Positions 1-62,952 of a stretch of 64,000 bases of DNA are shown here, in pieces (position 1 is the stretch's first letter; each line of letters starts with the position of its first letter). The notes under the pieces are model-generated. The model was not told the DNA's origin, did not search any database, and saw only the letters and a program-made list of their open reading frames with translations. Source of the stretch: Rhipicephalus microplus (Eukaryota > Arthropoda > Arachnida > Ixodida > Ixodidae); NCBI RefSeq assembly GCF_043290135.1, contig NC_134701.1, positions 6,912,001 through 6,976,000 of the forward strand. The letters run 5' to 3'. A program made the translations under genes and the position numbers.

Positions 1-2
1 CT

Positions 3-76
3 GTCTCCGTGGCGCAATTGGCTAGCGCGATCGGCTGTTAACCGAAAGGTTGGAGGTACGAGCCCACCCAGTGGTG
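3..76 (+). tRNA. tRNA-Asn(GTT)-like unit, first in window (type A)
   Basis: First complete unit. The anticodon GTT is at 37-39 in a CTGTTAA loop. The D-stem GCGC/GCGC pairs. The anticodon stem pairs except at 27-43 (A-A). The T-loop reads TACGAGC instead of TTCGAGC, so the nearly universal T55 is A. The T-stem GGAGG/CCACC has one A-A mismatch. The acceptor GTCTCCG faces CAGTGGT, with mismatches and G-T wobbles. The discriminator is G. It is more likely a tRNA-derived pseudogene or Pol III unit than a working tRNA. Confidence 0.75.
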
Positions 77-85
77 GTGCGGCGC

Positions 86-93
86 TTTTTTTT
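86..93 (+). terminator. Pol III-type T8 terminator of the first unit
   Basis: A run of eight T lies ten bases after the discriminator G of the unit at 3-76, the usual place for a Pol III stop. Equivalent runs of T7 to T9 follow most units in the array; exceptions are listed separately. Confidence 0.7.
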
Positions 94-150
94 CTTTGGG
101 CTGATAACTTTGAAGATATGTTCTGATGGTGGTGAGAGTGGAGCACGACT

Positions 151-223
151 GTCTCCATGGCGCAATTGGCTATTCGATCGGCTGTTAACTGAAAGGTTTG
201 AGGTTCGAGCCCTTCCGGGAGTG
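151..223 (+). tRNA. tRNA-Asn(GTT)-like unit, short D-arm class (type C)
   Basis: Representative of a recurring class beginning GTCTCCATGG, with CTATTCGATCGG in place of CTAGCGCGATCGG. This removes one base and destroys the 3' half of the D-stem. The anticodon loop is CTGTTAA with C39 T40 G41. The T-loop TTCGAGC is intact, but the T-stem has lost pairing at its first position. Folding as a canonical cloverleaf is doubtful, while the internal promoter boxes remain recognisable. Copies of this class alternate with type A and type B units throughout the array. Confidence 0.65.
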
Positions 224-297
224 TTGTGTTGCTTTTTTTATTTTGGGCTGATAGCTTTGAAGATATGTAATGATGGTGGTGAGAGTGGAGCACGACT

Positions 298-371
298 GTC
301 TCTGTGGCGCAATTGGCTAGCGCGATCGGCGGTTAACCGAAAGGTTGGAGGTTCGAGCCCTCCCGGGAGTG
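298..371 (+). tRNA. tRNA-Asn-like unit with position-33 T to G change
   Basis: The unit begins GTCTCTG, the closest acceptor 5' half to the usual animal tRNA-Asn form. The anticodon loop reads CGGTTAA, so the invariant T33 needed for the anticodon U-turn is G, next to anticodon GTT at 332-334. The B box (GGTTCGAGCCC) and T-stem (GGAGG/CCTCC) are intact. A similar loop, with an extra T for C, is seen at about 5,210-5,225 and 22,625-22,640 (CGGTGGTTAACC). Confidence 0.6.
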
Positions 372-593
372 GTGTGTTGCTTTTTTTATTTTGGGCTGAT
401 AGCTTTGAAAATATGTTCTGGTGGTGGTGAGTGTGGAGCAGGACTGTCTCCGTGGCGCAATTGGCTAGCGCGATCGGCTGTTAACCGAAAGGTTGGAGGT
501 ACGAGCCTACCCGGTGGAGGTGCGGCGCTTTTTTTTCTTTGGGCTGATAGCTTTGAAGATATGTTCTGATGGTGGTGAGAGTGGAGCACGACT

Positions 594-667
594 GTCTCCG
601 TGGCGCAATTGGCTAGCGCGATCGGCTGTTAACCGAGAGGTTGGAAGTTGGAGCCCACCCGGTGGTG
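594..667 (+). tRNA. tRNA-Asn(GTT)-like unit, TTGGAGC T-loop class (type E)
   Basis: Representative of a class with GGAAGTTGGAGCCC in place of GGAGGTTCGAGCCC: C56 of the T-loop is G and the last T-stem pair is altered, so the B box is damaged. The tail also differs: CGGCGATTTTTTTCC, then TTTTGGCTGATAGCTCTGAAGAAATG. The GTT anticodon and D-arm are intact. Copies recur near 1,928, 5,480, 11,532, 13,308, 17,291 and 30,731. Confidence 0.6.
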
Positions 668-741
668 GTGCGGCGATTTTTTTCCTTTTGGCTGATAGCT
701 CTGAAGAAATGTTCTGACGGTGGTGAGAGCGGAGCACGACT

Positions 742-813
742 GTCTCCATGGCGCAATTGGCTATGTGATCGGCTGTCAACTGAAAGGTTGGAGGTTCGAG
801 TCCCGCGGGAGTG
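742..813 (+). tRNA. tRNA-like unit with GTC (Asp-type) anticodon (type D)
   Basis: The anticodon loop reads CTGTCAA with GTC at 775-777, so the array's usual Asn anticodon has become an Asp one by a T to C change at position 36. The unit is one base short in the D-arm (CTATGTGATCGG) and one base short at the T-stem 3' side (TCCCGCGGGAG). The cloverleaf is therefore compromised, although the T-loop TTCGAGT is good. The class is abundant, with copies near 2,076, 5,626, 9,173, 11,237, 13,004, 13,448 and 29,092, and the GTC is fixed within it. Confidence 0.6.
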
Positions 814-1036
814 GTGTATTGCTTTTTTTTTCTTTGGGCTGATAGCTTTGAAGATGTGTTCTGATGGTGGTAAGAGTGGAGCACGACTGTCTCCGTGGCG
901 CAGTTGGCTAGCGCTATCGGCTGTTAACCGAAAGGTTGGAGGTTCGGGCCCACCTGGTGGTGGTGCGGCGCTTTTTTTTCTTTGGGCTGATAGCTTTGAA
1001 GATATGTTCTGATGGTGGTGAGAGTGGAGCACGACT

Positions 1037-1110
1037 GTCTCCGTGGCGCAATTGGCTAGCGCGATCGGCTGTTAACCGAAAGGTTGGAGGTACGAGCCCA
1101 CCCGGTGGTG
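1037..1110 (+). tRNA. tRNA-Asn(GTT)-like unit, consensus type A
   Basis: This is the commonest unit form: GTCTCCG acceptor 5' half, A box TGGCGCAATTGG, perfect four-base-pair D-stem, GTT anticodon, T-arm GGAGG-TACGAGC-CCACC, acceptor 3' half CGGTGGT and discriminator G, then TGCGGCGC and eight T. CCACC is what would pair with the GGTGG of ordinary animal tRNA-Asn, so the ancestral 5' T-stem probably changed GGTGG to GGAGG. T55 to A would also weaken the B box, which makes Pol III transcription of this class uncertain. Confidence 0.72.
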
Positions 1111-1631
1111 GTGCGGCGCTTTTTTTTCTTTGGGCTGATAACTTTGAAGATATGTTCTGATGGTGGTGAGAGTGGAGCACGACTGTCTCCGTGGCGCAAT
1201 CGGCTAACGCGATCGGCTGTTAACCGAAAGGTTGGAGGTACGAGGCCTCCCGGGAGTGGTGTGTTCCTTTTTTTATTTTGGGCTGATAGCTTCGAAGATA
1301 TGTTCTGATGGTGGTGAGAGTGTAGCACGACTGTCTCCGTGGCGCAATTTGCTAGCGCGATCGGCTGTTAACCGAAAGGTTGGAGGTACGAGCCCACCTG
1401 GTGGTGGTGGTGCGGCGCTTTTTTTTCTTTGGGCTGATAGCTTTGAAGATATGTTCTGATGGTGGTGAGAGTGGAGCACGACTGTCTCCATGGCGCAATT
1501 GGCTATTCGATCGGGCTGTTAACTGAAAGGTTTGAGGTTCGAGCCCTTCCGGGAGTGGTGTGTTGCTTTTTTTATTTTAGGCTTATAGCTTTGAAGATAT
1601 GTAATGATGGTGGTGAGTGTGGAGCACGACT

Positions 1632-1705
1632 GTCTCCGTGGCGCAATTGGCTAGCGCGATCGGCTGTTAACCGAAAGGTTGGAGGTTCGAGCCCTCCCGG
1701 GAGTG
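1632..1705 (+). tRNA. tRNA-Asn(GTT)-like unit, best-folding class (type B)
   Basis: This is the class nearest to a usable tRNA. The A box TGGCGCAATTGG and B box GGTTCGAGCCC both fit the Pol III consensus. The D-stem and T-stem (GGAGG/CCTCC) pair fully. The anticodon loop is CTGTTAA and the discriminator is G73, as in Asn tRNAs. Weak points are the acceptor, where GTCTCCG faces CGGGAGT (three G-C pairs, three G-T wobbles, one C-A mismatch), and an A-A pair at 27-43. A T7 run follows after TGGTGTTGC-like sequence. Identical or near-identical units recur near 3,258 and 6,366. Confidence 0.75.
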
Positions 1706-4700
1706 GTGTGTTGCTTTTTTTATTTTGGGCTGATAGCTTTGAAAATATGTTCTGGTGGTGGTGAGTGTGGAGCAGGACTGTCTCCGTGGCGCAATTGGCT
1801 AGCGCGATCGGCTGTTAACCGAAAGGTTGGAGGTACGAGCCTACCCGGTGGAGGTGCGGCGCTTTTTTTTCTTTGGGCTGATAGCTTTGAAGATATGTTC
1901 TGATGGTGGTGAGAGTGGAGCACGACTGTCTCCGTGGCGCAATTGGCTAGCGCGATCGGCTGTTAACCGAGAGGTTGGAAGTTGGAGCCCACCCGGTGGT
2001 GGTGCGGCGATTTTTTTCCTTTTGGCTGATAGCTCTGAAGAAATGTTCTGACGGTGGTGAGAGCGGAGCACGACTGTCTCCATGGCGCAATTGGCTATGT
2101 GATCGGCTGTCAACTGAAAGGTTGGAGGTTCGAGTCCCGCGGGAGTGGTGTATTGCTTTTTTTTCTTTGGGCTGATAGCTTTGAAGATGTGTTCTGATGG
2201 TGGTAAGAGTGGAGCACGACTGTCTCCGTGGCGCAATTGGCTAGCGCTATCGGCTGTTAACCGAAAGGTTGGAGGTTCGGGCCCACCTGGTGGTGGTGCG
2301 GCGCTTTTTTTTCTTTGGGCTGATAGCTTTGAAGATATGTTCTGATGGTGGTGAGAGTGGAGCACGACTGTCTCCGTGGCGTAATTGGCTAGCGCAATCG
2401 GCTGTTAACCGAAAGGTTGGAGGTACGAGCCCACCCGGTGGTGGTGCGGCGCTTTTTTTTCTTTGGGCTGATAGCTTTGAAGATATGTTCTGATGGTGGT
2501 GAGAGTGGAGCAGGACTGTCTCCGTGGCGCAATCGGCTAACGCGATCGGCTGTTAACCGAAAGGTTGGAGGTACGAGCCCTCCCGGGAGTGGCGTGTTTC
2601 TTTTTTTATTTTGGGCTGATAGCTTTGAAGTTATGTTCTGATGGTGGTGAGAGTGGAGCACGACTGTCTCCGTGGCGCAATTGGCTAGCGCGATCGGCTG
2701 TTAACCGAAAGGTTGGAGGTACGAGCCCACCCGGTGGTGGTGCGGCGCTTTTTTTTCTTTGGGCTGATAGCTTTGAAGATATGTTCTGATGGTGGTGAGA
2801 GTGGAGCAGGACTGTCTCCGTGGCGCAATCGGCTAACGCGATCGGCTGTTAACCGAAAGGTTGGAGGTACGAGGCCTCCCGGGAGTGGTGTGTTCCTTTT
2901 TTTATTTTGGGCTGATAGCTTCGAAGATATGTTCTGATGGTGGTGAGAGTGTAGCACGACTGTCTCCGTGGCGCAATTTGCTAGCGCGATCGGCTGTTAA
3001 CCGAAAGGTTGGAGGTACGAGCCCACCTGGTGGTGGTGCGGCGCTTTTTTTTCTTTGGGCTGATAGCTTTGAAGATATGTTCTGATGGTGGTGAGAGTGG
3101 AGCACGACTGTCTCCATGGCGCAATTGGCTATTCGATCGGGCTGTTAACTGAAAGGTTTGAGGTTCGAGCCCTTCCGGGAGTGGTGTGTTGCTTTTTTTA
3201 TTTTAGGCTTATAGCTTTGAAGATATGTAATGATGGTGGTGAGTGTGGAGCACGACTGTCTCCGTGGCGCAATTGGCTAGCGCGATCGGCTGTTAACCGA
3301 AAGGTTGGAGGTTCGAGCCCTCCCGGGAGTGGTGTGTTGCTTTTTTTATTTTGGGCTGATAGCTTTGAAAATATGTTCTGATGGTGGTGAGTGTGGAGCA
3401 GGACTGTCTCCGTGGCGCAATTGGCTAGCGCGACCGGCTGTAAACCGAAAGGTTGGAGGTACGAGCCTACTCAGTGGAGGTGCGGCGCTTTTTTTTCTTT
3501 GTTTTGGGCTGATAGCTTTGAAGATATGTTCTGATGGTGGTGAGAGTGGAGCAGGACTGTCTCCGTGGCGCAATCGGCTAACGCGATCGGCTGTTAACCG
3601 AAAGGTTGGAGGTACGAGCCCTCCCGGGAGTGGTGTGTTGCTTGTTTTATTATGGGCTGATAGCTTTGAAGATATGTTCTGATGGTGGTGAGAGTAGAGC
3701 ACGACCGTCTCCGTGGCGCAATGGGCTAGCGCGATCGGCTGTTAACCGAAAGGTTTGAGGTACGAGCCCACCCGGTGGTGGTGCGGCGCTTTTTTTTCTT
3801 TGGGCTGATAGCTTTGAAGATATGTTCTGATGGTGGTGAGAGTAGAGCACGACTGTCTCCATGGCGCAATGGGCTATTCAATCGGCTGTTAACTGAAAGG
3901 TTTGAGTTTCGAGCCCTTGCACGAGTGGTGTGTTGCTTTTTTTATTTTGGGCTGATAGCTTTGAAGATATGTAATGATGGTGGTGAGAGTGGAGCACGAC
4001 TGTCTCCGTGGCGCAATTGGCTAGCGCGATCGGCTGTTAACCGAAAGGTTGGAGGTACGAGCCCACCCGGTGGTGGTGCGGCGCTTTTTTTTCTTTGGGC
4101 TGATAGCTTTGAAGATATGTTCTGATGGTGGTGAGAGTGGAGCACGACTGTCTCCGTGGCGCAATTGGCTAGCGCGATCAACTGTTAACTGAAAGGTTGG
4201 ATGTTCGAGCCCTCCCGGGAGTAGTCTGTTGCTTTTTTTTCTTTGGGCTGATAGCTTCGAAGATATGTTCTGATGGTGGTGAGAGTAGAGCAGGACTGTC
4301 TCCGTGGCGCAATTGGCTGCCGCGATCGGCTGTTAACCGAAAGTTTGGAGGTACGAGCCCACCCGGTGGAGGTGCGGCGCTTTTTTTTCTTTGGGCTGAT
4401 AGCTTTGAAGATATGTTCTGATGGTGGTGAGAGTGGAGCACGACTGTCTCCGTGGCGCAATTGGCTAGCGCGATCGGCTGTTAACCGAAAGGTTGGAGGT
4501 TCGAGCCCACCCGGTGGTGGTGCGGCGCTTTTTTTCCTTTGGGCTGATAGCTCTGAAGAAATCTTCTGACGGTGGTGAGAGTGAAGCACGGCTGTCTTCG
4601 TGGCGCAATTGGCTATGTGATCGGCTGTTAACTGAAAGGTTGGAGGTTCGAGCCCTCCCGGGAGTGGTGTGTTGCTTTTTTTTCTTTGGGCTGATAGCTT

Positions 4701-7700
4701 TCAAAATATGTTCTGATGGTGGTGAGTGTGGAACAGGACTGTCTCCGTGAAGCAATTGGCTAGCGCGATCGGCTGTTAACCGAAAGGTTGGAGGTACGAG
4801 CCCTCCCGGGAGTGGTGTGTTGCTTTTTTTATTTCGGCCTGAAAGCTATGAAGATATGTTCTGATGCTGGTGAGAGTGGAGCCCGACTCTCCGTGGCGCA
4901 ATCGGCTAGCGCGATCGGCTGTTAACCGAAAGGTTGGAGGTACGAGCCCACGCAGTGGTGGTGCGGCGCCTTTTTTTTCTTTGGGCTGATAGCTTTGAAG
5001 ATATGTTCTGATGGTGGTGAGAGTGGAGCACGACTGTCTCCGTGGCGCAATAGGCTATTCGATCGGCTGTTAACTGAAAGGTTGGATGTTCGAGCCCTCC
5101 CGGGAGTAGTGTGTTGCTTTTTTTTCTTTGGGCTGATAGCTTCGAAGATATGTAATGATGGTGGTGAGAGTGGAGCACGACTGTCTCTGTGGCGCAATTG
5201 GCTAGCGCGATCGGTGGTTAACCGAAAGGTTGGAGGTTCGAGCCCTGCCGGGAGTGGTGTGTTGCTTTTTTTATTTTGGGCTGATAGCTTTGAAAATATG
5301 TTCTGATGGTGGTGAGTGTGGAGCAGGACTGTCTCCGTGGCGCAATTGGCTAGCGCGATCGGCTGTTAACCGAAAGGTTGGAGGTACGAGCCTACCCGGT
5401 GGAGGTGCGGCGCTTTTATTTCTTTGGGCTGATAGCTTTCAAGATATGTTCTGATGATGGTGAGAGTGGAGCACGACTGTCTCCGTGGCGCAATTGGCTA
5501 GCGCGATCGGCTGTTAACCGAGAGGTTGGAAGTTGGAGCCCACCCGGTGGTGGTGCGGCGATTTTTTTCCTTTTGGCTGATAGCTCTGAAGAAATGTTCT
5601 GACGGTGGTGAGAGTGGAGCACGACTGTCTCCATGGCGCAATTGGCTATGTGATCGGCTGTCAACTGAAGAGGTTGGAGGTGCGAGTCCCGCGGGAGTGG
5701 TGTATTGCTTTTTTTTTTGGGCTGATAGCTTTGAAGATGTGTTCTGATGGTGGTAAGAGTGGAGCACGACTGTCTCCGTGGTGCAATTGGCTAGCGCTAT
5801 CGGCTGTTAACCGAAAGGTTGGAGGTTCGGGCCAACCTGGTGGTGGTGCGGCGCTTTTTTTTCTTTGGGCTGATAGCTTTGAAGATATGTTCTGATGGTG
5901 GTGAGAGTGGAGCACGACTGTCTCCGTGGCGCAATTGGCTAGCGCGATCGGCTGTTAACCAAAAGGTTGGAGGTACGAGCCCACCCGGTGGTGGTGCGGC
6001 GCTTTTTTTTCTTTGGGCTGATAGCTTTGAAGATATGTTCTGATGGTGGTGAGAGTGTAGCACGGCTGTCTCCGTGGCGCAATTTGCTAGCGCGATCGGC
6101 TGTTAACCGAAAGGTTGGAGGTACGAGCCCACCTGGTGGTGGTGCGGCGCTTTTTTTTCTTTGGGCTGATAGCTTTGAAGATATGTTCTGATGGTGGTGA
6201 GAGTGGAGCACGACTGTCTCCATGGCGCAATTGGCTATTCGATCGGCTGTTAACTGAAAGGTTTGAGGTTTCAGCCCTTCCGGGAGTGGTGCGTTGCTTT
6301 TTTTATTTTGGGCTGATAGCTTTGAAGATATGTATTGATGGTGGTGAGTGTGGAGCACGACTGTCTCCGTGGCGCAATTGGCTAGCGCGATCGGCTGTTA
6401 ACCGAAAGGTTGGAGGTTCGAGCCCTCCCGGGAGTGGTGTGTTGCTTTTTTTATTTTGGGCTGATAGCTTTGAAAATATGTTTTGATGGTGGTGAGTGTG
6501 GAGCAGGACTGTCTCTGTGGCGCAATTGGCTAGCGCGATCGGCTGTAAACCGAAAGGTTGGAGGTACGAGCCTACTCAGTGGAGGTGCGGCGCTTTTTTT
6601 TCTTTGGGCTGATAGCTTTGAAGATATGTTCTGATGGTGGTGAGAGTGAAGCAGGACTGTCTCCGTGGCGCAATCGGCTAACGCGATCGGCTGTTAACCG
6701 AAAGGTTGGAGGTACGAGCCCTCCCGGGAGTGGTGTGTTGCTTGTTTTATTTTGGGCTGATAGCTTTGAAGATATGTTCTGATGGTGGTGAGAGTGGAGC
6801 ACGACTGTCTCCGTGGCGCAATGGGCTAGCGCGATCGGCTGTTAACCGAAAGGTTTGAGGTACGAGCCCACCCGGTGGTGGTGCGGCGCTTTTTTTTCTT
6901 TGGGCTGATAGCTTTGAAGATATGTTCTGATGGTGGTGAGAGTAGAGCACGACTGTCTCCATGGCGCAATGGGCTATTCAATCGGCTGTTAACTGAAAGG
7001 TTTGAGTTTCGAGCCCTTGCGCGAGTGGTGTGTTGCTTTTTTATTTTGGGCTGATAGCTTTGAAGATATGTAATGATGGTGGTGAGAGTGGAGCACGACT
7101 GTCTCCGTGGCGCAATTGGCTAGCGCGATCGGCTGTTAACCGAAAGGTTGGAGGTACGAGCCCACCCGGTGGTGGTGCGGCGCTTTTTTTTCTTTGGGCT
7201 GATAGCTTTGAAGATATGTTCTGATGGTGGTGAGAGTGGAGCACGACTGTCTCCATGGCGCAATTGGCTATTCCATCGGCTGTTAACTGAAAGAATTGAG
7301 GTTCGAGCCCTTCCAGGAGTGGTGCGGCGCTTTTTTTTCTTTGGGCTGATAGCTTTGAAGAAATGTTCTGATGGTGGTGAGAGTTGAGCACGTCTGTCTC
7401 CGTGGCGCAATTGGCTAGCGCGGTCGGCTGTTAGTCGAAAGGTTGGAGGTTCGAACCCTCCCGAGAGTGGTGTGTTGCTTTTTTTATTTTTTGCTGATAG
7501 CTTTGAAAATATGTTTAATGGTGGTGAGTGTGGAGCAGGACTGTCTCCGTGACGCAATTGGCTAGCTCGATCGGCTGTTAACCGAAAGGTTGGAGGTACG
7601 AGCCCACCCGGTGGAGGTGCGGCGCTTTTTTTTCTTTGGACTGATAGCTTTGAAGATATGTCCTGATGGTGGTGAGAGTGGAGCACGACTGTCTCCGTGG

Positions 7701-9026
7701 CGCAATTGGCTAGCGCGATCGACTGTTAACTGAAAGGTTGGATGTTCGAGCCCTCCCGGGAGTAGTGTGTTGCTTTTTTTTCTTTGGGCTGATAGCTTCG
7801 AAGATATGTTCTGATGGTGGTGAGAGTGGAGCAGGACTGTCTCCGTGGCGCAATTGGCTGCCGCGATCGGCTGTTAACCGAAAGGTTGGAGGTACGAGCC
7901 CACCCAGAGGAGGTGCGGCGCTTTTTTTTCTTTGGGCTGATAGCTTTGAAGATATGTTCTGATGGTGGTGAGAGTGGAGCACGACTGTCTCCGTGGCGCA
8001 ATTGGCTAGCGCGATCGGCTGTTAACCGAAAGGTTGGAGGTTCGAGCCCACCCGGTGGTGGTGCGGCGCTTTTTTTCCTTTGGGCTGATAGCTCTGAAGA
8101 AATCTTCTGACGGTGGTGAGAGTGGAGCACGAAAGTCTCCGCGGCGCAATTGGCTAGCGCGATCGGCTGTTAACCGAAAGGTTGGAGGTTGGAGACCTCC
8201 CGGGAGTGGTGTGTTGCTTTTTTTATTTTGGGCTGATAGCTTTGAAAATATGTTCTGATGGTGGTGAGTGTGGAGCAGGACTGTCTCCGTGGCGCAATTG
8301 GCTAGCGCGATCGGCTGTAAACCGAAAGGTTGGAGGTACGAGCCTACCCGGTGGAGGTGCGGCGCTTTTTTTTTCTTTGGGCTGATAGCTTTGAAGATAT
8401 GTTCTGATGGTGGTGAGAGTGGAGCACGACTGTCTCCGTGGCGCAATCGGCTAATGCGATCGGCTGTTAACCGAAAGGTTGGAGGTGCGAGCCCTCCCGG
8501 GAGTGGTGTGTTGCTTTTTTTATTTTGGGCTGATAGCTTTGAAGATATGCTCTGAAGGTGGTGAGAGTGGAGCACGACTGTCTCCGTGGCGCAATTGGCT
8601 AGCGCGATCGGCTGTTAACCGAAAGGTTGGAGGTACGAGCCCACCCGGTGGTGGTGCGGCGCTTATTTTTCTTTGGGCTGATAGCTTTGAAGATATGTTC
8701 TGATGGTGGTGAGAGTGGAGCACGACTGTCTCCGTGGCGCAATTGGCTAGCGCGATCAGCTGTTAACCGAAAGGTTAGAGGTACGAGCCCACCCGCTGGT
8801 GGTGCGGCGCTTTTTTTTCTTTGGGCTGATAGCTCTGAAGAAATGTTCTGACGGTGGTGTGAGTGGAGCACGACTGTCTTCCGTGGCGCAATTGGCTAGC
8901 GCGATTGGCTGTTATCCGAAAGGTTGGAGGTTCGAGCCCTCCCGGTGGAGGTGCGGCGCTTTTTTTTTTCTTTGGGCTGATAGCTTTGAAGATATGTTCT
9001 GATGGTGGTGAGAGTGGAGCGGGACT

Positions 9027-9100
9027 GTCTCCGTGGCGCAATTGGCTAGCGCGATCGGCTGATAACCGAGAGGTTGGAAGTTGGAGCCCGCCCGGTGGTG
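9027..9100 (+). tRNA. tRNA-like unit with GAT (Ile-type) anticodon
   Basis: The loop reads CTGATAA with GAT at 9,061-9,063. The duplicate of this block at about 26,443 has the ordinary CTGTTAA, so this is a private change after the 17.4-kb duplication. The T-loop is TTGGAGC (type E). The tail is CAATTTTCTTCC, with at most four T in a row. Confidence 0.55.
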
Positions 9101-9762
9101 GTGCGGCAATTTTCTTCCTTTTGGCTGATAGCTCTGAAGAAATGTTCTGACGGTGGTGAGAGTGGAGCACGACTGTCTCCATGGCGCAATTGACTATGCG
9201 ATCGGCTGTCAACTGAAAGGTTGGAGGTTCGAGTCCCGCGGGAGTGGTGTATTGCTTTTTTTTCTTTGGGCTGATAGCTTTGAAGATGTGTTCTGATGGT
9301 GGTAAGAGTGGAGCACGACTGTCTCCGTGGCGCAATTGGCTAGCGCTATCGGCTGTTACCCGAAAGGTTGGAGGTTCGGGCCCACCTGGTGGTGGTGCGG
9401 CGCTTTTTTTTCTTTGGGCTGATAGCTTTGAAGATATGTTCTGATGGTGGTGAGAGTGGAGCACGACTGTCTCCGTGGCGCATTTGGCTAGCGCGATCGG
9501 CTGTTAACCGAAAGGTTGCAGGTACGAGCCCTCCCGGGAGTGGTGTGTTGCTTTTTTTATTTCGGCTTGAAAGCTATGAAGATATGTTCTGATGCTGGTG
9601 AGAGTGGAGCCCGACTCTCCGTGGGGCAATCGGCTAGCGCGATCGGCTGTTAACCGAAAGGTTGGAGGTACGAGCCCACGCAGTGGTGGTGCGGCGCTTT
9701 TTTTTCTTTGGGCTGATAGCTTCGAAGATATGTTCTGATGGTGGTGAGAGTGGAGCAGGACT

Positions 9763-21309: not shown

Positions 21310-24300
21310 GAAAGGTTGGAGGTACGAGCCCTCCCGGGAGTGGTGTGTTGCTTGTTTTATTATGGGCTGATAGCTTTGAAGATATGTTCTGATGGTGGTG
21401 AGAGTAGAGCACGACCGTCTCCGTGGCGCAATGGGCTAGCGCGATCGGCTGTTAACCGAAAGGTTTGAGGTACGAGCCCACCCGGTGGTGGTGCGGCGCT
21501 TTTTTTTCTTTGGGCTGATAGCTTTGAAGATATGTTCTGATGGTGGTGAGAGTAGAGCACGACTGTCTCCATGGCGCAATGGGCTATTCAATCGGCTGTT
21601 AACTGAAAGGTTTGAGTTTCGAGCCCTTGCGCGAGTGGTGTGTTGCTTTTTTTATTTTGGGCTGATAGCTTTGAAGATATGTAATGATGGTGGTGAGAGT
21701 GGAGCACGACTGTCTCCGTGGCGCAATTGGCTAGCGCGATCGGCTGTTAACCGAAAGGTTGGAGGTACGAGCCCACCCGGTGGTGGTGCGGCGCTTTTTT
21801 TTCTTTGGGCTGATAGCTTTGAAGATATGTTCTGATGGTGGTGAGAGTGGAGCACGACTGTCTCCGTGGCGCAATTGGCTAGCGCGATCAACTGTTAACT
21901 GAAAGGTTGGATGTTCGAGCCCTCCCGGGAGTAGTCTGTTGCTTTTTTTTCTTTGGGCTGATAGCTCTGAAGAAATCTTCTGACGGTGGTGAGAGTGAAG
22001 CACGGCTGTCTTCGTGGCGCAATTGGCTATGTGATCGGCTGTTAACTGAAAGGTTGGAGGTTCGAGCCCTCCCGGGAGTGGTGTGTTGCTTTTTTTTCTT
22101 TGGGCTGATAGCTTTCAAAATATGTTCTGATGGTGGTGAGTGTGGAACAGGACTGTCTCCGTGAAGCAATTGGCTAGCGCGATCGGCTGTTAACCGAAAG
22201 GTTGGAGGTACGAGCCCTCCCGGGAGTGGTGTGTTGCTTTTTTTATTTCGGCCTGAAAGCTATGAAGATATGTTCTGATGCTGGTGAGAGTGGAGCCCGA
22301 CTCTCCGTGGCGCAATCGGCTAGCGCGATCGGCTGTTAACCGAAAGGTTGGAGGTACGAGCCCACGCAGTGGTGGTGCGGCGCCTTTTTTTTCTTTGGGC
22401 TGATAGCTTTGAAGATATGTTCTGATGGTGGTGAGAGTGGAGCACGACTGTCTCCGTGGCGCAATAGGCTATTCGATCGGCTGTTAACTGAAAGGTTGGA
22501 TGTTCGAGCCCTCCCGGGAGTAGTGTGTTGCTTTTTTTTCTTTGGGCTGATAGCTTCGAAGATATGTAATGATGGTGGTGAGAGTGGAGCACGACTGTCT
22601 CTGTGGCGCAATTGGCTAGCGCGATCGGTGGTTAACCGAAAGGTTGGAGGTTCGAGCCCTGCCGGGAGTGGTGTGTTGCTTTTTTTATTTTGGGCTGATA
22701 GCTTTGAAAATATGTTCTGATGGTGGTGAGTGTGGAGCAGGACTGTCTCCGTGGCGCAATTGGCTAGCGCGATCGGCTGTTAACCGAAAGGTTGGAGGTA
22801 CGAGCCTACCCGGTGGAGGTGCGGCGCTTTTATTTCTTTGGGCTGATAGCTTTCAAGATATGTTCTGATGATGGTGAGAGTGGAGCACGACTGTCTCCGT
22901 GGCGCAATTGGCTAGCGCGATCGGCTGTTAACCGAGAGGTTGGAAGTTGGAGCCCACCCGGTGGTGGTGCGGCGATTTTTTTCCTTTTGGCTGATAGCTC
23001 TGAAGAAATGTTCTGACGGTGGTGAGAGTGGAGCACGACTGTCTCCATGGCGCAATTGGCTATGTGATCGGCTGTCAACTGAAGAGGTTGGAGGTGCGAG
23101 TCCCGCGGGAGTGGTGTATTGCTTTTTTTTGGGCTGATAGCTTTGAAGATGTGTTCTGATGGTGGTAAGAGTGGAGCACGACTGTCTCCGTGGTGCAATT
23201 GGCTAGCGCTATCGGCTGTTAACCGAAAGGTTGGAGGTTCGGGCCAACCTGGTGGTGGTGCGGCGCTTTTTTTTCTTTGGGCTGATAGCTTTGAAGATAT
23301 GTTCTGATGGTGGTGAGAGTGGAGCACGACTGTCTCCGTGGCGCAATTGGCTAGCGCGATCGGCTGTTAACCAAAAGGTTGGAGGTACGAGCCCACCCGG
23401 TGGTGGTGCGGCGCTTTTTTTTCTTTGGGCTGATAGCTTTGAAGATATGTTCTGATGGTGGTGAGAGTGTAGCACGGCTGTCTCCGTGGCGCAATTTGCT
23501 AGCGCGATCGGCTGTTAACCGAAAGGTTGGAGGTACGAGCCCACCTGGTGGTGGTGCGGCGCTTTTTTTTCTTTGGGCTGATAGCTTTGAAGATATGTTC
23601 TGATGGTGGTGAGAGTGGAGCACGACTGTCTCCATGGCGCAATTGGCTATTCGATCGGCTGTTAACTGAAAGGTTTGAGGTTTCAGCCCTTCCGGGAGTG
23701 GTGCGTTGCTTTTTTTATTTTGGGCTGATAGCTTTGAAGATATGTATTGATGGTGGTGAGTGTGGAGCACGACTGTCTCCGTGGCGCAATTGGCTAGCGC
23801 GATCGGCTGTTAACCGAAAGGTTGGAGGTTCGAGCCCTCCCGGGAGTGGTGTGTTGCTTTTTTTATTTTGGGCTGATAGCTTTGAAAATATGTTTTGATG
23901 GTGGTGAGTGTGGAGCAGGACTGTCTCTGTGGCGCAATTGGCTAGCGCGATCGGCTGTAAACCGAAAGGTTGGAGGTACGAGCCTACTCAGTGGAGGTGC
24001 GGCGCTTTTTTTTCTTTGGGCTGATAGCTTTGAAGATATGTTCTGATGGTGGTGAGAGTGAAGCAGGACTGTCTCCGTGGCGCAATCGGCTAACGCGATC
24101 GGCTGTTAACCGAAAGGTTGGAGGTACGAGCCCTCCCGGGAGTGGTGTGTTGCTTGTTTTATTTTGGGCTGATAGCTTTGAAGATATGTTCTGATGGTGG
24201 TGAGAGTGGAGCACGACTGTCTCCGTGGCGCAATGGGCTAGCGCGATCGGCTGTTAACCGAAAGGTTTGAGGTACGAGCCCACCCGGTGGTGGTGCGGCG

Positions 24301-46590: not shown

Positions 46591-47399
46591 TGGGCTGATA
46601 GCTCTGAAGAAATGTTCTGACGGTGGTGAGAGTGGAGCACGACTGTCTCCGTGGCACATTTGGCCAGCGCGATCGGCTGTTAACCGAAAGGTTGGAGGTA
46701 CGAGCCCTCCCGGGAGTGGTGTGTTGCTTTTTTTATTTCGGGCTGAAAGCTATGAAGATATGTTCTGATGCTGGTGAGAGTGGAGCACGACTGTCTCCGT
46801 GGCGCAATCGGCTAGCGCGATCGGCTGTTAACCAAAAGGTTAGAGGTACGAGCCCACGCAGTGGTGGTACGGCGCTTTTTTTTCTTTGGGCTGATAGCTT
46901 TGAAGATATGTCCTGATGGTGGTGAGAATGGAGCACGACTGTCTCCGTGGCGCAATTGGCTATTCGATCGGCTGTTAACTTAAAGGTTGGATGTTCGAGC
47001 CCTCCCGGGAGTAGTGTGTTGCTATTTTTTATTTGAGCTGATAGCTTCGAAGATATGTTCTGATGGTGGTGAGAGTGGAGCACGACTGTCTCCGTGGCGC
47101 AATTGGCTAGCGCGATCGGCTGTTAACCGAAAGGTTGGAGGTACGAGCCCACCCGGTGGTGGTGCGGCGCTTTTTTTTTCTTTGGGCTGATAGCTTTGAA
47201 GATATGTTCTGATGGTGGTGAGAGTGGAGCACGACTGTCTCCATGGCGCAATTGGCTATTCCATCGGCTGTTCACTGAAAGGTTTGAGGTTCGAGCCCTT
47301 CCGGGAGCGGTGTGTTGCTTTTTTTATTTTGGGCTGATAGCTTTGAAGATACGTTCTGATGGTAGTGAGAGTGGAGCACGGCTGTCTTCATGGCGCAAG

Positions 47400-50300
47400 T
47401 GGCTAGCGCGATCGGCTGTTAACCGAAAGGTTGGAGGTACGAGCCCTTCCGGGAGTGGTGCGGCGCTTTTTTTTCTTTGGGCTGATAGCTTTGAAGAAAT
47501 GTTCTGATGGTGGTGAGAGTTGAGCACGTCGGTCTCCGTGGTGCAACTGGCTAGCGCGGTCGGCTGTTAACCGAAAGTTTGGAGGTTCGAGCCCTCCCGG
47601 GAGTGGTGTGTTGCTTTTTTTAGTTTTTGCTGATAGCTTTGAAAATATGTTTTGATGGTTGTGAGTGTGGAGCAGGACTGTCTCCGTGACGCAATTGGCT
47701 AGCTCGATCGGCTGTTAACCGAAAGGTTGGAGGTACGAGCCCACCCGGTGGAGGTGCGGCGCTTTTTTTTCTTTGGATTGATAGCTTTGAAGATATGTCC
47801 TGATGGTGGTGAGAGTGAAGCACGACTGTCTCCGTGGAGCAATTGGCTAGCGCGATCGACTGTTAACCGAGAGTTTGAAGGTTCGAACCCACCCGGTGGT
47901 GGTGCGGCGATGTTTTTTCTTTGGGCTGATAGCTCTGAAAAAATGTTCAGACAGTGGTGAGAGTGGAGGACGGCTGTCTTCATGGCGCAAGTGGCTATGC
48001 GATCGGCTGTTAACTGAAAAGTTGGAGGTTCCAGCCCTCCCGGGAGTGGTTTGTTGCTTTTTTTTGGGCTGATAGCTTAGAAGTTATGTTCTGAAGGTGG
48101 TGAGAGTGGAGCACGACTGTCTCCATGGCGCAATTTGCTAGCGCGATCGGCTGTTAACCGAAAGGTTTGAGGTACGAGCCCACACGGTGGTGGTCGGCAC
48201 TTTTTTTTATTTGGACTGATAGCTCTGAAGGAATGTTCTGACGGTGGTGAGAGTGGAGCGCGACTGTCTCCGTGGCGCAATTGGCTATGCGAAAGGCTGT
48301 TAACCGCAAGGTTGGAGGTTCGAGCCCACCCGGTGGTGGTGCGGCGCTTTTTTTTCTTTGGGCTGATAGCTTTGAAGATATGTTCTGATGGTGGTGAGAG
48401 TGGAGCAGGACTGTCTCCGAGGCGCAATCGGCTAACTTGATCGGCTGTTAACCGAAAGGCTGGAGGTACGAGCCCTCCCGGGAGTGGTGTGTTGCTTTTT
48501 ATATTTTGGGCTGATAGCTTTGAAGATACGTTCTGATGGTGGTGAGAGTGGAGCACGACTGTCTCCGTGGCGCAATTGGCTAGCGCGATCGGCTGTTAAC
48601 CGAAAGTTTGGAGGTACGAGCCCACCTGGTGGTGGTGCGGCGCTTTTTTTTCTTTGGGCTGATAGCTTTGAAGATATGTTCTGATGGTGGTGAGAGTGGA
48701 GCACGACTGTCTCCAAGGCGCAATTGGCTATTCGATCGGCTGTTAACTGAAAGGTTTGAGGTTCGAGCCCTTCCGGGAGTGGTGTGTTGCTTTTTTTTAT
48801 TTTGGGCTGATAGCTTTGAAGATATGTAATGATGGTGGTGAGAGTGGAGCACGACTGTCTCCGTGGCGCAATTGGCTAGCGCGATCGGCTGTTAACCAAA
48901 AGGTTGGAGGTACGAGCCCACCCGGTGGTGGTGCGGCGCTTTTTTTTCTTTGGGCTGATAGCTTTGAAGATATGTTCTGATGGTGTTGAGAGTGGAGCAG
49001 GACTGTCTCCGTGGCGCAATGGGTTAGCGCGATCAGCTGTTAACCGAAAGGTTGGAGGTACGAGCCCACCCGGTGGTGGTGCGGCGCTTGTTATTCTTTG
49101 GGCTGATAGCTGTGAAGATATGTTCTGATGGTGGTGAGAGTGGAGCAGGACTGTCTCCGAGGCGCAATCGGCTAACGCGATCGGCTGTTAACCGAAAGGC
49201 TGGAGGTACGAGCCCTCCCGGGAGTGGTGTGTTGCTTTTTATATTTTGGGCTGATAGCTTTGAAGATACGTTCTGATGGTAGTGAGAGTGGAGCACGGCC
49301 GTCTTCATGGCGCAAGTGGCTAGCGCGATCGGCTGTTAACCGAAAGGTTGGAGGTACGAGCCCTTCCGGGAGTGGTGCGGCGCTTTTTTTTCTTTGGGCT
49401 GATAGCTTTGAAGAAATGTTCTGATGGTGGTGAGAGTTGAGCACGTCGGTCTCCGTGGTGCAGTTGGCTAGCGCGGTCGGCTGTTAACCGAAAGTTTGGA
49501 GGTTCGAGCCCTCCCGGGAGTGGTGTGTTGCTTTTTTTATTTTTTGCTGATAGCTTTGAAAATATGTTTTGATGGTTGTGAGTGTGGAGCAGGACTGTCT
49601 CCGTGACGCAATTGGCTAGCTCGATCGGCTGTTAACCGAAAGGTTGGAGGTACGAGCCCACCCGGTGGAGGTGCGGCGCTTTTTTTTCTTTGGACTGATA
49701 GCTTTGAAGATATGTCCTGATGGTGGTGAGAGTGAAGCACGACTGTCTCCGTGGAGCAATTGGCTAGCGCGATCGACTGTTAACCGAGAGTTTGAAGGTT
49801 CGAACCCACCCGGTGGTGGTGCGGCGATGTTTTTTCTTTGGGCTGATAGCTCTGAAAAAATGTTCAGACAGTGGTGAGAGTGGAGGACGGCTGTCTTCAT
49901 GGCGCAAGTGGCTATGCGATCGGCTGTTAACTGAAAAGTTGGAGGTTCCAGCCCTCCCGGGAGTGGTTTGTTGCTTTTTTTTGGGCTGATAGCTTAGAAG
50001 ATATGTTCTGATGTTGGTGAGAGTGGAGCACGACTGTCTCCATGGCGCAATTTGCTAGCGCGATCGGCTGTTAACCGAAAGGTTTGAGGTACGAGCCCAC
50101 ACGGTGGTGGTCCGGCACTTTTTTTTATTTGGACTGATAGCTCTGAAGGAATGTTCTGACGGTGGTGAGAGTGGAGCACGACTGTCTCCGTGGCGCAATT
50201 GGCTATGCGAAAGGCTGTTAACCGCAAGGTTGGAGGTTCGAGCCCTCCAGGGAGTGGTGTGTTGCTTTTTTTTCTTTGGGCTGATAGCTTTGAAGATATG

Positions 50301-51310
50301 TTCTGATGGTGGTGAGAGTGGAGCAGGACTGTCTCCGTGGCGCAATTGGCTAGCGCGATCGGCTGTTAACCGAAAGACTGGTGGTACGAGCCCACCCGGT
50401 GGTGGTGCGGCGCTTTTTTTCTTTGGGCTGATAGCTCTGAAGAAATGTTCTGACGGTGGTGAGAGTGGAGCACGACTGTCTCCGTGGCACATTTGGCCAG
50501 CGCGATCGGCTGTTAACCGAAAGGTTGAAGGTACGAGCCCTCCCGGGAGTGGTGTGTTGCTTTTTTTATTTCGGGCTGAAAGCTATGAAGATATGTTCTG
50601 ATGCTGGTGAGAGTGGAGCACGACTGTCTCCGTGGCGCAATCGGCTAGCGCGATCGGCTGTTAACCAAAAGGTTGGAGGTACGAGCCCACGCAGTGGTGG
50701 TACGGCGCTTTTTTTTCTTCGGGCTGATAGCTTTGAAAATATGTCCTGATGGTGGTGAGAATGGAGCACGACTGTCTCGGTGGCGCAATTGGCTATTCGA
50801 TCGGCTGTTAACTTAAAGGTTGGATGTTCGAGCCCTCCCGGGAGTAGTGTGTTGCTATTTTTTATTTGGGCTGATAGCTTCGAAGATATGTTCTGATGGT
50901 GGTGAGAGTGGAGCACGACTGTCTCCGTGGCGCAATTGGCTAGCGCGATCGGCTGTTAACCGAAAGGTTGGAGGTACGAGCCCACCCTGTGGTGGTGCGG
51001 CGCTTTTTTTTTCTTTGGGCTGATAGCTTTGAAGATATGTTCTGATGGTGGTGAGAGTGGAGCACGACTGTCTCCATGGCGCAATTGGCTATTCCATCGG
51101 CTGTTCACTGAAAGGTTTGAGGTTCGAGCCCTTCCGGGAGCGGTGTGTTGCTTTTTTTATTTTGGGCTGATAGCTTTGAAGATACGTTCTGATGGTAGTG
51201 AGAGTGGAGCACGGCTGTCTTCATGGCGCAAGTGGCTAGCGCGATCGGCTGTTAACCGAAAGGTTGGAGGTACGAGCCCTTCCGGGAGTGGTGCGGCGCT
51301 TTTTTTTCTT
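47400..51310 (+). repeat. ~3.9-kb block, copy 2 (offset ~4.72 kb)
   Basis: Partner of 42,680-46,590. Small private differences include TCTCGG at about 50,777, shared with 46,057, and a CGGGCTG spacer change near 50,720. Boundaries are approximate because flanking units are also similar. Confidence 0.75.
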
Positions 51311-53099
51311 TGGGCTGATAGCTTTGAAGAAATGTTCTGATGGTGGTGAGAGTTGAGCACGTCGGTCTCAGTGGTGCAATTGGCTAGCGCGGTCGGCTGT
51401 TAACCGAAAGTTTGGAGGTTCGAGCCCTCCCGGGAGTGGTGTGTTGCTTTTTTTAGTTTTTGCTGATAGCTTTGAAAATATGTTTTGATGGTTGTGAGTG
51501 TGGAGCAGGACTGTCTCCGTGACGCAATTGGCTAGCTCGATCGGCTGTTAACCGAAAGGTTGGAGGTACGAGCCCACCCGGTGGAGGTGCGGCGCTTTTT
51601 TTTCTTTGGACTGATAGCTTTGAAGATATGTCCTGATGGTGGTGAGAGTGAAGCACGACTGTCTCCGTGGAGCAATTGGCTAGCGCGATCGACTGTTAAC
51701 CGAGAGTTTGAAGGTTCGAACCCACCCGGTGGTGGTGCGGCGATGTTTTTTCTTTGGGCTGATAGCTCTGAAAAAATGTTCAGACAGTGGTGAGAGTGGA
51801 GGACGGCTGTCTTCATGGCGCAAGTGGCTATGCGATCGGCTGTTAACTGAAAAGTTGGAGGTTCCAGCCCTCCCGGGAGTGGTTTGTTGCTTTTTTTTGG
51901 GCTGATAGCTTAGAAGATATGTTCTGATGGTGGTGAGAGTGGAGCACGACTGTCTCCATGGCGCAATTTGCTAGCGCGATCGGCTGTTAACCGAAAGGTT
52001 TGAGGTACGAGCCCACACGGTGGTGGTCCGGCACTTTTTTTTTATTTAGACTGATAGCTCTGAAGGAATGTTCTGACGGTGATGAGAGTGGAGCACGACT
52101 GTCTCCGTGGCGCAATTGGCTATGCGAAAGGCTGTTAACCGCAAGGTTGGAGGTTCGAGCCCTCCAGGGAGTGGTGTGTTGCTTTTTTTTCTTTGGGCTG
52201 ATAGCTTTGAAGTTATGTTCTGATGGTGGTGAGAGTGGAGCAGGACTGTCTCCGTGGCGCAATTGGCTAGCGCGATCGGCTGTTAACCGAAAGACTGGAG
52301 GTACGAGCCCACCCGGTGGTGGTGCGGCGCTTTTTTTTTCTTTGGGCTGATAGCTTTGAAGATATGTTCTGATGGTGGTGAGAGTGGAGCACGACTGTCT
52401 CCATGGCGCAATTGGCTATTCCATCGGCTGTTCACTGAAAGGTTTGAGGTTCGAGCCCTTCCGGGAGTGGTGTGTTGCTTTTTTTATTTCGGGCTGAAAG
52501 CTATGAAGATATGTTCTGATGCTGGTGAGAGTGGAGCACGACTGTCTCCGTGGCGCAATCGGCTAGCGCGATCGGCTGTTAACCAAAAGGTTGGAGGTAC
52601 GAGCCCACGCAGTGGTGGTACGGCGCTTTTTTTCTTTGGGCTGATAGCTTTGAAGATATGTCCTGATGGTGGTGAGAATGGAGCACGACTGTCTCCGTGG
52701 CGCAATTGGCTGTTCGATCGGCTGTTAACTTAAAGGTTGGATGTTCGAGCCCTCCCGGGAGTAGTGTGTTGCTATTTTTTATTTGGGCTGATAGCTTCGA
52801 AGATATGTTCTGATGGTGGTGAGAGTGGAGCACGACTGTCTCCGTGGCGCAATTGGCTAGCGCGATCGGCTGTTAACCGAAAGGTTGGAGGTACGAGCCC
52901 ACCCGGTGGTGGTGCGGCGCTTTTTTTTTCTTTGGGCTGATAGCTTTGAAGATATGTTCTGATGGTGGTGAGAGTGGAGCACGACTGTCTCCATGGCGCA
53001 ATTGGCTATTCCATCGGCTGTTCACTGAAAGGTTTGAGGTTCGAGCCCTACCGGGAGCGGTGTGTTGCTTTTTTTATTTTGGGCTGATAGCTTTGAAGA

Positions 53100-55900
53100 T
53101 ATGTTCTGATGGTGGTGAGAGTGGAGCACGACTGTCTCCGTGGCGCAATTGGCTAGCGCGATCAGCTGTTAACCGAAAGGTTAGAGGTACGAGCCCACCC
53201 GCTGGTGGTGCGGCGCTTTTTTTTCTTTGGGCTGATAGCTCTGAAGAAATGTTCTGACGGTGGTGTGAGTGGAGCACGACTGTCTCCGTGGCGCAATTGG
53301 CTAGCGCGATCGGCTGTTATCCGAAATGTTGGAGGTTCGAGCCCTCCCGGTGGAGGTGCGGCGCTTTTTTTCTTTGGGCTGATAGCTTTGAAGATATGTT
53401 CTGATGGTGGTGAGAATGGAGCGCGACTGTCTCCGTGGCGCAGTTGGCTAGCGCGATCGGCTGTTATCCGAAAGGTTGGAGGTTCGAGCCCTCCCGGTGG
53501 AGGTGCGGCGCTTTTTTTCTTTGGGCTGATAGCTTTGAAGATATGTTCTGATGGTGGTGAGAGTGGAGCGCGACTGTCTCCATGGCGCAATTGGCTAGCG
53601 CGATCGGCTGTTAACCGAAAGGTTGGAAGTTGGAGCCCACCCGGTGGTGGTGCGGCGATTTTTTTCCTTTTGGCTGATAGCTCTGAAGAAATGTTCTGAC
53701 GGTGGTGAGAGTGGAGCACGACTGTCTCCATGGCGCAATTGACTATGCGATCGGCTGTCAACTGAAAGGTTGGAGGTTCGAGTCCCGTGGGAGTTGTGTA
53801 TTGCTTTTTTTTCTTTGGGCTGATAGCTTTGAAGATGTGTTCTGATGGTGGTAAGAGTGGAGCACGACTGTCTCCGTGGCACAATTGGCTAGCGATATCG
53901 GCTGTTAACCGAAAGGTTGGAGGTTCGGGCCCACCTGGTGGTGGTGCGGCGCTTTTTTTTTCTTTGGGCTGATAGCTTTGAAGATATGTTCTGATGGTGG
54001 TGAGAGTGGAGCACGACTGTCTCCGTGGCGCAATTGGCTAGCGCGATCGGCTGTTAACCGAGAGGTTGGAAGTTGGAGCCCACCTGGTGGTGGTGCGGCG
54101 ATTTTTTTCCTTTTGGCTGATAGCTCTGAAGAAATGTTCTGACGGTGGTGAGAGTGGAGCACGACTGTCTCCATGGCGCAATTGACTATGCGATCGGCTG
54201 TCAACTGAAAGGTTGGAGGTTCGAGTCCCGCGGGAGTGGTGTATTGCTTTTTTTTCTTTGGGCTGATAGCTTTGAAGATGTGTTCTGATGGTGGTAAGAG
54301 TGGAGCACGACTGTCTCCATGGCGCAATTGGCTAGCGCTAGCGGCTGGTAACCGAAAGGTTGGAGGTTCGGGCCCACCTGGTGGTGGTGCGGCGCTTTTT
54401 TTTCTTTGGGCTGATAGCTTTGAAGATATGTTCTGATGGTGGTGAGAGTGGAGCACGACTGTCTCCGTGGCGCAATTGGCTAGCGCGATCGGCTGTTAAC
54501 CGAAAGGTTGGAGGTACGAGCCCACCCGGTGGTGGTGTGGCGCTTTTTTTTCTTTGGGCTGATAGCTTTGAAGATATGTTCTGATGGTGGTGAGAGTGGA
54601 GCAGGACTGTCTCCGAGGCGCAATCGGCTAACGCGATCGGCTGTTAACCGAAAGGCTGGAGGTACGAGCCCTCCCGGGAGTGGTGTGTTGCTTTTTAAAT
54701 TTTGGGCTGATAGCTTTGAAGATACGTTCTGATGGTGGTGAGAGTGGAGCACGACTGTCTCCGTGGCGCAATTGGCTAGCGCGATCGGCTGTTAACCGAA
54801 AGTTTGGAGGTACGAGCCCACCTGGTGGTGGTGCGGCGCTTTTTTTTCCTTGGGCTGATAGCTTTGAAGATATGTTCTGATGGTGGTGAGAGAGGAGCAC
54901 GACTGTCTCCAAGGCGCAATCGGCTATTCGATCGGCTGTTAACTGAAAGGTTTGAGGTTCGAGCCCTTCCGGGAGTGGTGTGTTGCTTTTTTTTTATTTT
55001 GGGCTGATAGCTTTGAAGATATGTAATGATGGTGGTGAGAGTGGAGCACGACTGTCTCCGTGGCGCAATTGGCTAGCGCGATCGGCTGTTAACCAGAAGG
55101 TTGGAGGTACGAGCCCACCCGGTGGTGGTGCGGCGCTTTTTTTTCTTTGGGCTGATAGCTTTGAAGATATGTTCTGATGGTGTTGAGAGTGGAGCAGGAC
55201 TGTCTCCGTGGCGCAATGGGTTAGCGCGATCAGCTGTTAACCGAAAGGTTGGAGGTACGAGCCCACCCGGTGGTGGTGGTGCGCTTGTTATTCTTTGGGC
55301 TGATCGCTTTGAAGATATGTTCTGATGGTGGTGAGAGTGGAGCAGGACTGCCTCCGAGGCGCAATCGGCTAACGCGATCGGCTGTTAACCGAAAGGCTGG
55401 AGGTACGAGCCCTCCCGGGAGTGGTGTGTTGCTTTTTATATTTTGGGCTGATAGCTTTGAAGATACGTTCTGATGGTAGTGAGAGTGGAGCATGGCTGTC
55501 TTCATGGCGCAAGTGGCTAGCGCGATCGGCTGTTAACCGAAAGGTTGGAGGTACGAGCCCTTCCGGGAGTGGTGCGGCGCTTTTTTTTCTTTGGACTGAT
55601 AGCTTTGAAGATATGTCCTGATGGTGGTGAGAGTGAAGCACGACTGTCTCCGTGGAGCAATTGGCTAGCGCGATCGACTGTTAACCGAGAGTTTGAAGGT
55701 TCGAACCCACCCGGTGGTGGTGCGGCGATGTTTTTTCTTTGGGCTGATAGCTCTGAAAAAATGTTCAGACAGTGGTGAGAGTGGAGGACGGCTGTCTTCA
55801 TGGCGCAAGTGGCTATGCGATCGGCTGTTAACTGAAAAGTTGGAGGTTCCAGCCCTCCCGGGAGTGGTTTGTTGCTTTTTTTTGGGCTGATAGCTTAGAA
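53100..55900 (+). repeat. Diverged copy of the 33.9-36.8 kb block
   Basis: Unit variants from 53,100 to 55,900 follow the order seen at about 33,900-36,800, including the GGT-anticodon unit, the terminator-less unit and the TTCGAAC marker at 55,642. One duplicated CTGTTATCC unit (near 53,310 and 53,460) and several deletions are local. Confidence 0.65.
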
Positions 55901-56526
55901 GATATGTTCTGATGGTGGTGAGAGTGGAGCACGACTGTCTCCATGGCGCAATTTGCTAGCGCGATCGGCTGTTAACCGAAAGGTTTGAGGTACGAGTCCC
56001 GCGGGAGTGGTGTATTGCTTTTTTTTCTTTGGGCTGATAGCTTTGAAGATGTGTTCTGATGGTGGTAAGAGTGGAGCACGACTGTCTCCGTGGCGCAATT
56101 GGCTAGCGCTATCGGCTGGTAACCGAAAGGTTGGAGGTTCGGGCCCACCTGGTGGTGGTGCGGCGCTATTTTTTCTTTGGGCTGATAGCTTTGAAGATAT
56201 GTTCTGATGGTGGTGAGAGTGGAGCACGACTGTCTCCGAGGCGCAATTGGCTAGCGCGATCGGCTGTTAACCGAAAGGTTTAGGTACGAGCCCACCCGGT
56301 GGTGGTGCGGCGCTTTTTTTTCTTTGGGCTGATAGCTTTGAAGATATGTTCTGATGGTGGTGAGAGTGGAGCAGGACTGTCTCCGAGGCGCAATCGGCTA
56401 ACGCGATCGGCTGTTAACCGAAAGGCTGGAGGTACGAGCCCTCCCGGGAGTGGTGTGTTGCTTTTTATATTTTGGGCTGATAGCTTTGAAGATACGTTCT
56501 GATGGTGGTGAGAGTGGAGCACGACT

Positions 56527-56600
56527 GTCTCCGTGGCGCAATTGGCTAGCGCGATCGGCTGTTAACCGAAAGGTTGGAGGTACGAGCCCACCTGGTGGTG
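56527..56600 (+). tRNA. Last tRNA-Asn(GTT)-like unit before the retroelement
   Basis: Complete type A unit with TACGAGC T-loop, CCACC T-stem and TGGTGGT acceptor half. It is followed by nine T (56,610-56,618) and then TTTGGGCTGATAG, where the repeat spacer is cut by the PLE junction. Confidence 0.7.
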
Positions 56601-56630
56601 GTGCGGCGCTTTTTTTTTCTTTGGGCTGAT

Positions 56631-56634
56631 AGCA
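56631..56634. other. Junction between tRNA satellite and Penelope-like element
   Basis: The spacer of the last unit reads GGGCTGATAGC and then, instead of TTTGAAG, continues AAAACTGCG, which is PLE sequence. One or two bases (C or GC) are shared by both sides, so the exact breakpoint is ambiguous. The other end of the element cluster lies outside the window, so target-site duplication cannot be tested. Confidence 0.85.
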
Positions 56635-62757: not shown

Positions 62758-62793
62758 AACTGTTATCGTTTTTATGTTTTTGTTATCGTTGTC

Positions 62794-62951: not shown

Positions 62952-62952
62952 G

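Follow-up and report, generated by a model that had tools for sequence, protein, structure and literature searches.

Described systems and the window array

Tandem or clustered transfer RNA (tRNA) genes are known from the tRNA gene arrays of Entamoeba and from the tRNA clusters on zebrafish chromosome 4, which comprise several tRNA species and working genes. The window studied here, a stretch of 64,000 bp on contig C2 of the tick Rhipicephalus microplus (C2:6912001-6976000, in a 3.26-Gb assembly of 1,202 contigs), likewise harbors tRNA-like units in tandem, but these represent a single tRNA, that for asparagine (tRNA-Asn), and are decayed. Like the tick sequence, the maize tRNA satellite tRNASAT_ZM (Repbase), named for its tRNA sequence, is a tandem satellite; it is described as a 91.95-kb array on chr4L (PMC10335936). 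Thus, satellites whose monomer stems from a tRNA gene, as it does in the tick, are a kind already known. However, maize is described there as having one 92-kb array, whereas the tick possesses megabase blocks near several probable chromosome ends and, in addition, a better-kept lineage; descriptions, not unit sequences, are compared here. For the tick satellite it is likely that a tandem tRNA-Asn family gave rise to one damaged lineage, and that unequal exchange amplified this lineage near chromosome ends, where it now forms a passive satellite.

Another abundant near-terminal satellite of hard ticks is ISR-2 of Ixodes scapularis, which makes up ~7% of the genome according to the main text of the source, where the word tRNA is absent (PMC4748124). 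As its unit measures 95-99 bp instead of ~148 bp, identity of the two repeats was rejected. Among the literature matches listed, neither a tick tRNA satellite nor a tRNA-Asn origin of a tick repeat was found. For R. microplus itself, Hill et al. are said to have described in 2009 (Chromosome Res 17:77-89) the repeat RMTR-1, a subtelomeric tandem repeat of ~149 bp. Species, unit length and location near the ends agree with the 148-bp satellite, an agreement of descriptions and not of compared sequences, whereas RMTR-1 reportedly occurs on a larger number of chromosomes, compared to four in the present case. We know of no statement on a tRNA origin of RMTR-1. The tick satellite may be RMTR-1 and thus be known to cytogenetics, while its tRNA origin, its scale and the co-existing intact lineage look new.

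Tandem Repeats Finder (TRF) detected a single array in the window (1-56633) with a period of 148 and 383.7 copies. It was segmented into 384 head-to-tail units on the forward strand, 206 of which are unique. Exactly 148 bp were measured for 248 units, the others ranging from 142 to 153 bp except for a final partial unit of 109 bp. In each unit, a tRNA-Asn-like moiety of ~74 bp is followed by a trailer of ~9 bp, a T-run and a spacer of ~55 bp. In its long head-to-tail series of monomers and its higher-order repeats, the array has the structure of satellite DNA. A first-pass annotation of the window had described some 380 head-to-tail copies derived from tRNA-Asn(GTT), all in one orientation, with the GTT anticodon, discriminator G and a following T-run. 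This was confirmed by the segmentation: GTT is present in 336 of the 384 units, the discriminator G in 355 and a T-run of four or more in 377. The supposed constancy of the ~148-bp unit does not hold, as the period is only approximate, and the size of 56 kb is correct only inside the window, since megabase blocks exist on several chromosomes.

ARAGORN predicted 180 tRNAs in the window, all on the forward strand and 165 of them Asn-GTT, and the Rfam tRNA model yielded 209 matches at its gathering score (all on the forward strand among the 150 listed). Because the best E-value of a single unit was 5.7e-8, a chance resemblance to tRNA is excluded. These numbers, obtained from one window alone, illustrate that tRNA counts in tick genomes should be filtered strictly by score. 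According to a preprint on the Rocky Mountain wood tick, tRNA genes are 20-30 fold more numerous in ticks, evenly across isotypes, once a score cut of 50 and a confidence filter have been applied (PMC13105059). Probably almost no window unit would pass such filtering; the surplus described there and the satellite therefore seem to be different things.

Decay of the tRNA moiety

The cloverleaf plan proposed by the first-pass annotation holds with regard to tRNA identity, but the cloverleaf itself is damaged in all 384 units. None of them forms the complete set of 21 stem pairs, the maximum being 19. No unit forms pair 1 of the anticodon stem; acceptor pair 4 is formed by 173 units and pair 3 of the T-stem by 161. 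The best score of 50.9 bits, reached by four units, has to be compared to 67.7 bits for a lone tRNA-Asn gene on contig C1. The window units would for the most part be unable to make tRNA.

Two main unit types alternate irregularly within the array (A, 208 units; B, 152; other, 24), with a mean pairwise identity of 0.876 over all units. Most differences between A and B lie in the trailer and in the 3' half of the tRNA. The T-stem GGAGG/CCTCC is present in type B but lost in type A. Since this stem is shared by the lone C1 gene and by better-kept arrays described below, type B probably keeps the older state. By the same observation, a derivation of type B from type A through compensating changes was ruled out.

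For 200 unique rows, stem pairing amounted to 0.795, compared to 0.34-0.45 in slid controls. As this value lies close to that of column shuffles, the pairing is mostly inherited. The tRNA columns are not better conserved than the other columns, the difference of 0.031 bits pointing towards more variability (p 0.56). Purifying selection detectable on the tRNA half as a whole was therefore rejected.

This also bears on the question whether the array is a chromatin domain bound by RNA polymerase III (Pol III) or its factor TFIIIC. Remnant A and B boxes might recruit TFIIIC and thereby cluster or insulate chromosome ends, with or without RNA being made. A strict A box was found in 235 units and a strict B box in 106, and on C2 and C3 a single orientation extends across megabases, as would suit such a domain. 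By contrast, the columns of the A box (0.31 bits) and B box (0.33 bits) show no more conservation than the spacer (0.30 bits), and half of the units (191/384) carry an altered B box, GGTACGA. A chromatin domain of this type is thus rather unlikely. The same applies, with similarly low probability, to the more far-reaching idea that tens of thousands of units with remnant Pol III promoters constitute a working TFIIIC/Pol III landscape near the chromosome ends that organizes these ends or feeds tRNA-Asn fragments, with intact units on other contigs (C45, C9 and C502) serving as a main source of tRNA-Asn. Of the three functions considered by the first-pass annotation, a Pol III-bound domain, a source of tRNA fragments and an inert satellite, the last is favored by the window anatomy, that is, by the lack of any complete cloverleaf and of extra conservation in the tRNA half. 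Irrespective of this, the satellite is a natural test case for whether dense tRNA promoters shape chromosome ends.

Better-kept arrays, lineages and chromosomal distribution

To relate the window to other loci (C and L numbers denote contigs and short stretches read, respectively), the genome was searched with patterns. A 42-base pattern of animal tRNA-Asn gave no match; a pattern for a stretch of animal tRNA-Asn, with at most one mismatch, gave 2,209 matches, while its reversed control gave none. A 34-base unit pattern allowing up to three mismatches recovers 323 of the 384 window units, and a spacer pattern found nothing in prokaryote genome contigs or in viral contigs. Of 870 candidates, 40 were scored, and the lone C1 gene was the single exact copy among these 40; its flanks look unrelated to the satellite spacer. 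Another lone tRNA-Asn-like copy (C9 85,794,314-85,794,387; L146) scored 58.7 bits; its flanks do not resemble the satellite, and a long T-run lies downstream of it.

On C502, C45 and C9, tandem tRNA-Asn units are separated by the same trailer and spacer as in the window. Their top units reach 70.0 (C45), 65.7 (C9) and 63.9 bits (C502) and are thus comparable to the lone C1 gene. These arrays are mixed, as the other units of the stretches read scored 29-65 bits. The units read on C293 scored up to 50.0 bits, and 20 further loci in end blocks and on unplaced contigs gave 334 matches in 75,740 bases with a maximum of 53.0 bits. A perfect TTCGG/CCGAA anticodon stem was present in none of 658 units of window-type arrays but in 16 of 51 units from C502, C17 and the interstitial blocks on C4 (one wrongly cut unit of L121 was excluded). 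On C502 (L135), there are also units of 212-218 bp, apparently arisen through a partial duplication of ~68 bp with a second B-box-like stretch and T-run.

The derivation from a tRNA-Asn(GTT) gene, as claimed by the first-pass annotation, is supported twice: the covariance model does match type B units (four at 50.9 bits), and other parts of the genome contain units that share trailer and spacer with the window but have near-complete cloverleaves. These units matter for two further explanations. A tandem short interspersed nuclear element (SINE) of tRNA origin, instead of a tRNA gene, would have a precedent in Ruka, a tRNA-Ser-like SINE known in a related tick (PMC3160391). Nevertheless, this is most improbable given the gene-like T-run ~9 bp past the tRNA, the lack of a SINE body or tail in the unit and the near-complete cloverleaves in the same arrangement. 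An expansion of working genes for the bulk supply of tRNA-Asn is plausible on C45, C9 and C502, judging from the sequences of some of their units. For the window it is highly improbable, since no unit forms pair 1 of the anticodon stem or more than 19 of 21 pairs and the scores end at 50.9 bits. The better-kept lineage, on the other hand, may be expressed and resemble the ancestor.

For a tree, 165 units with lengths of 139-154 were used; the window contributed 25 of them and every other locus up to ten, but C502 just two because of the length limit. In this tree, all 135 window-type units, including 50 on unplaced contigs, were set apart from the remaining 30 (support 0.91). In a tree enlarged by 16 units, all 135 window-type units still stood together and all units of C45, C9, C293 and C502 outside. 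The sampled window-type units thus appear separate from the better-kept lineages, and a single damaged founder lineage fits the data, though this is not proof.

Higher-order periods of 27 and 118 units were detected within the window. At a lag of 118, 41% of the unit pairs are more than 98% identical, and 22% at a lag of 27, while neighbours average 86% identity. Divergence of units within and between chromosomes is alike (0.09-0.13). Together with the common orientation, this fits a repeated segmental exchange between chromosome ends.

Beyond the window, the satellite was found on C2 to the left at 6.85 Mb and to the right from ~6.983 Mb, past a retroelement cluster. In total, 120 short stretches (L009-L128) were read genome-wide; as some were sited near known matches, the sample is not random. 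At least half satellite was found in 35 of them. Satellite was present in 15 of 17 stretches at C2 5.25-9.7 Mb, in all five at C3 289.5-293.0 Mb and in all four at C4 229-233 Mb; on C6, it was found at 2.0 Mb, and the sampled stretches at 0.5, 1.2, 3.0 and 4.5 Mb had none. It also occurs on unplaced contigs. Thus, the 148-bp unit lies near one end of four of the 11 large contigs (C2, C3, C4 and C6), and on all four the units are oriented away from the nearer contig end. By interpolation, the three long blocks (C2, C3 and C4, the latter reaching 234.3 Mb) would comprise about 12-13 Mb or 80,000-90,000 units.

A TTAGG-rich repeat is located distal to the satellite on C2 (1-5 Mb) and C4 (235.5-241 Mb), and the C3 satellite comes within 0.3 Mb of the contig end. 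For these reasons, these contig ends are probably chromosome ends; the lack of telomeric sequence in the initial 4 kb of C2 counts against this. The TTAGG/CCTAA-rich repeat was seen on C2 in five of five samples at 1-Mb spacing (L010-L014), on C4 (L124, L059, L060), at 2 Mb on C1 (L049) and also on C5, C6, C11 and C14 (L064, L033, L088, L041). It shows periods of 213 and 273 bp in L012, and the best matches between sampled contigs are 84-97% identical. The starts of C5, C8 and C11 (1-4000; L032, L035, L038) consist nearly entirely of TAACC/GGTTA, with 797-798 copies per 4,000 bases; telomeres therefore seem to be assembled there.

In the proposed course of events, the monomer would have arisen from a tRNA-Asn(GTT) gene together with its trailer, its T-run and ~55 bp of flank. 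This gene would have turned into a tandem family in the tick, in which some units of the arrays on C45, C9 and C502 retain near-complete cloverleaves. A single lineage, its anticodon stem broken, would then have spread near some chromosome ends by unequal exchange, in segments of up to 118 units (17 kb) that mostly kept the same direction with respect to the nearer contig end. Presumably silent, this expanded lineage would persist as passive repeat DNA.

Several observations weigh against this reading. On ten large contigs, 40 stretches were read, most of them at distances of 2 and 6 Mb from either end, and only two are satellite (C3 and C6). Inner samples on C2 (10.32 and 10.5 Mb) and C4 (229.0 Mb) are inverted. 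Intact anticodon stems also occur inside the end blocks of C2, C3 and C4 (among the first 100 of the 2,209 places), so that the loss is not absolute, and the anticodon-stem change of the window units is found in some units of other lineages as well. In the enlarged tree, two of the added units, which come from C8 (126.1 Mb) and C12 (51.8 Mb) and not from the sampled end blocks, join the window-type group, with a node support of 0.07. Stem pairing slightly exceeds the column-shuffle mean of 0.792 (standard deviation 0.001; maximum of 300 shuffles 0.795), an excess which linked unit types could explain. Among unique units, the anticodon loop (0.23 bits) and the 5' acceptor strand (0.25 bits) are somewhat less variable than the spacer (0.30 bits). 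Finally, 51 of the 384 window units still combine a strict A box, a strict B box and the T-run, which would also suit TFIIIC recruitment.

Paths from a gene to a satellite usually have to be rebuilt from remnants. Here, a lone gene, near-intact tandem arrays, mixed arrays and a decayed megabase satellite are all present in one genome, and the individual steps can therefore be dated and tested.

Features of the window and the retroelement cluster

Table 1. Coordinates of the satellite, selected units and the adjoining retroelement copies within the window
Feature	Position	Strand	Remarks
Satellite array	1..56633	+	384 head-to-tail ~148-bp units; TRF and segmentation
First tRNA-Asn-like moiety	3..76	+	Type A unit; 36.9 bits
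Trailer and T8 run of first unit	77..93	+	Pol III terminator-like
Spacer of first unit	94..148	+	
Joint-best tRNA-Asn-like unit	1632..1705	+	50.9 bits
Joint-best unit, type B	3258..3331	+	50.9 bits; neither acceptor pair 3 nor anticodon-stem pair 1 formed
Joint-best tRNA-Asn-like unit	6363..6436	+	50.9 bits
Joint-best tRNA-Asn-like unit	23775..23848	+	50.9 bits
Penelope-like retroelement	56634..62375	-	Head-to-tail series of two full 2,604-bp copies and a partial third one
Same retroelement, inverted copy	62370..64000	+	Incomplete; runs off the window edge

In the window, the array is followed by a cluster of putatively Penelope-like retroelement copies (Table 1). The direct copies are 99.9% alike and the cluster is young. 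It continues into L021 (1-2764), about 4 kb between the window end and L021 lying outside the stretches read. Two copies contain a frame of 867 amino acids (stop to stop) that matches the reverse transcriptase family PF00078, while a 414-amino-acid piece of the inverted copy had no family match. The five best database relatives of the protein are 44-52% identical, and relatives come from ticks; a PDB search with this protein gave no match. A second stretch interrupting the satellite, without a match to the Penelope-like element, is located at C2 6.90 Mb (L020 77-4000).

The same 11 satellite bases, GGGCTGATAGC, stand next to the cluster at the junction in the window and on its far side near C2 6.983 Mb. 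On account of this duplication at both outer junctions, the cluster was inserted into a pre-existing array. The insertion likewise argues against an artefact of the assembly, as do the 206 distinct units among 384, the nested repeat periods and the occurrence on many contigs. Even though multi-megabase arrays are difficult to assemble and many contigs are unplaced, such an artefact is hardly conceivable.

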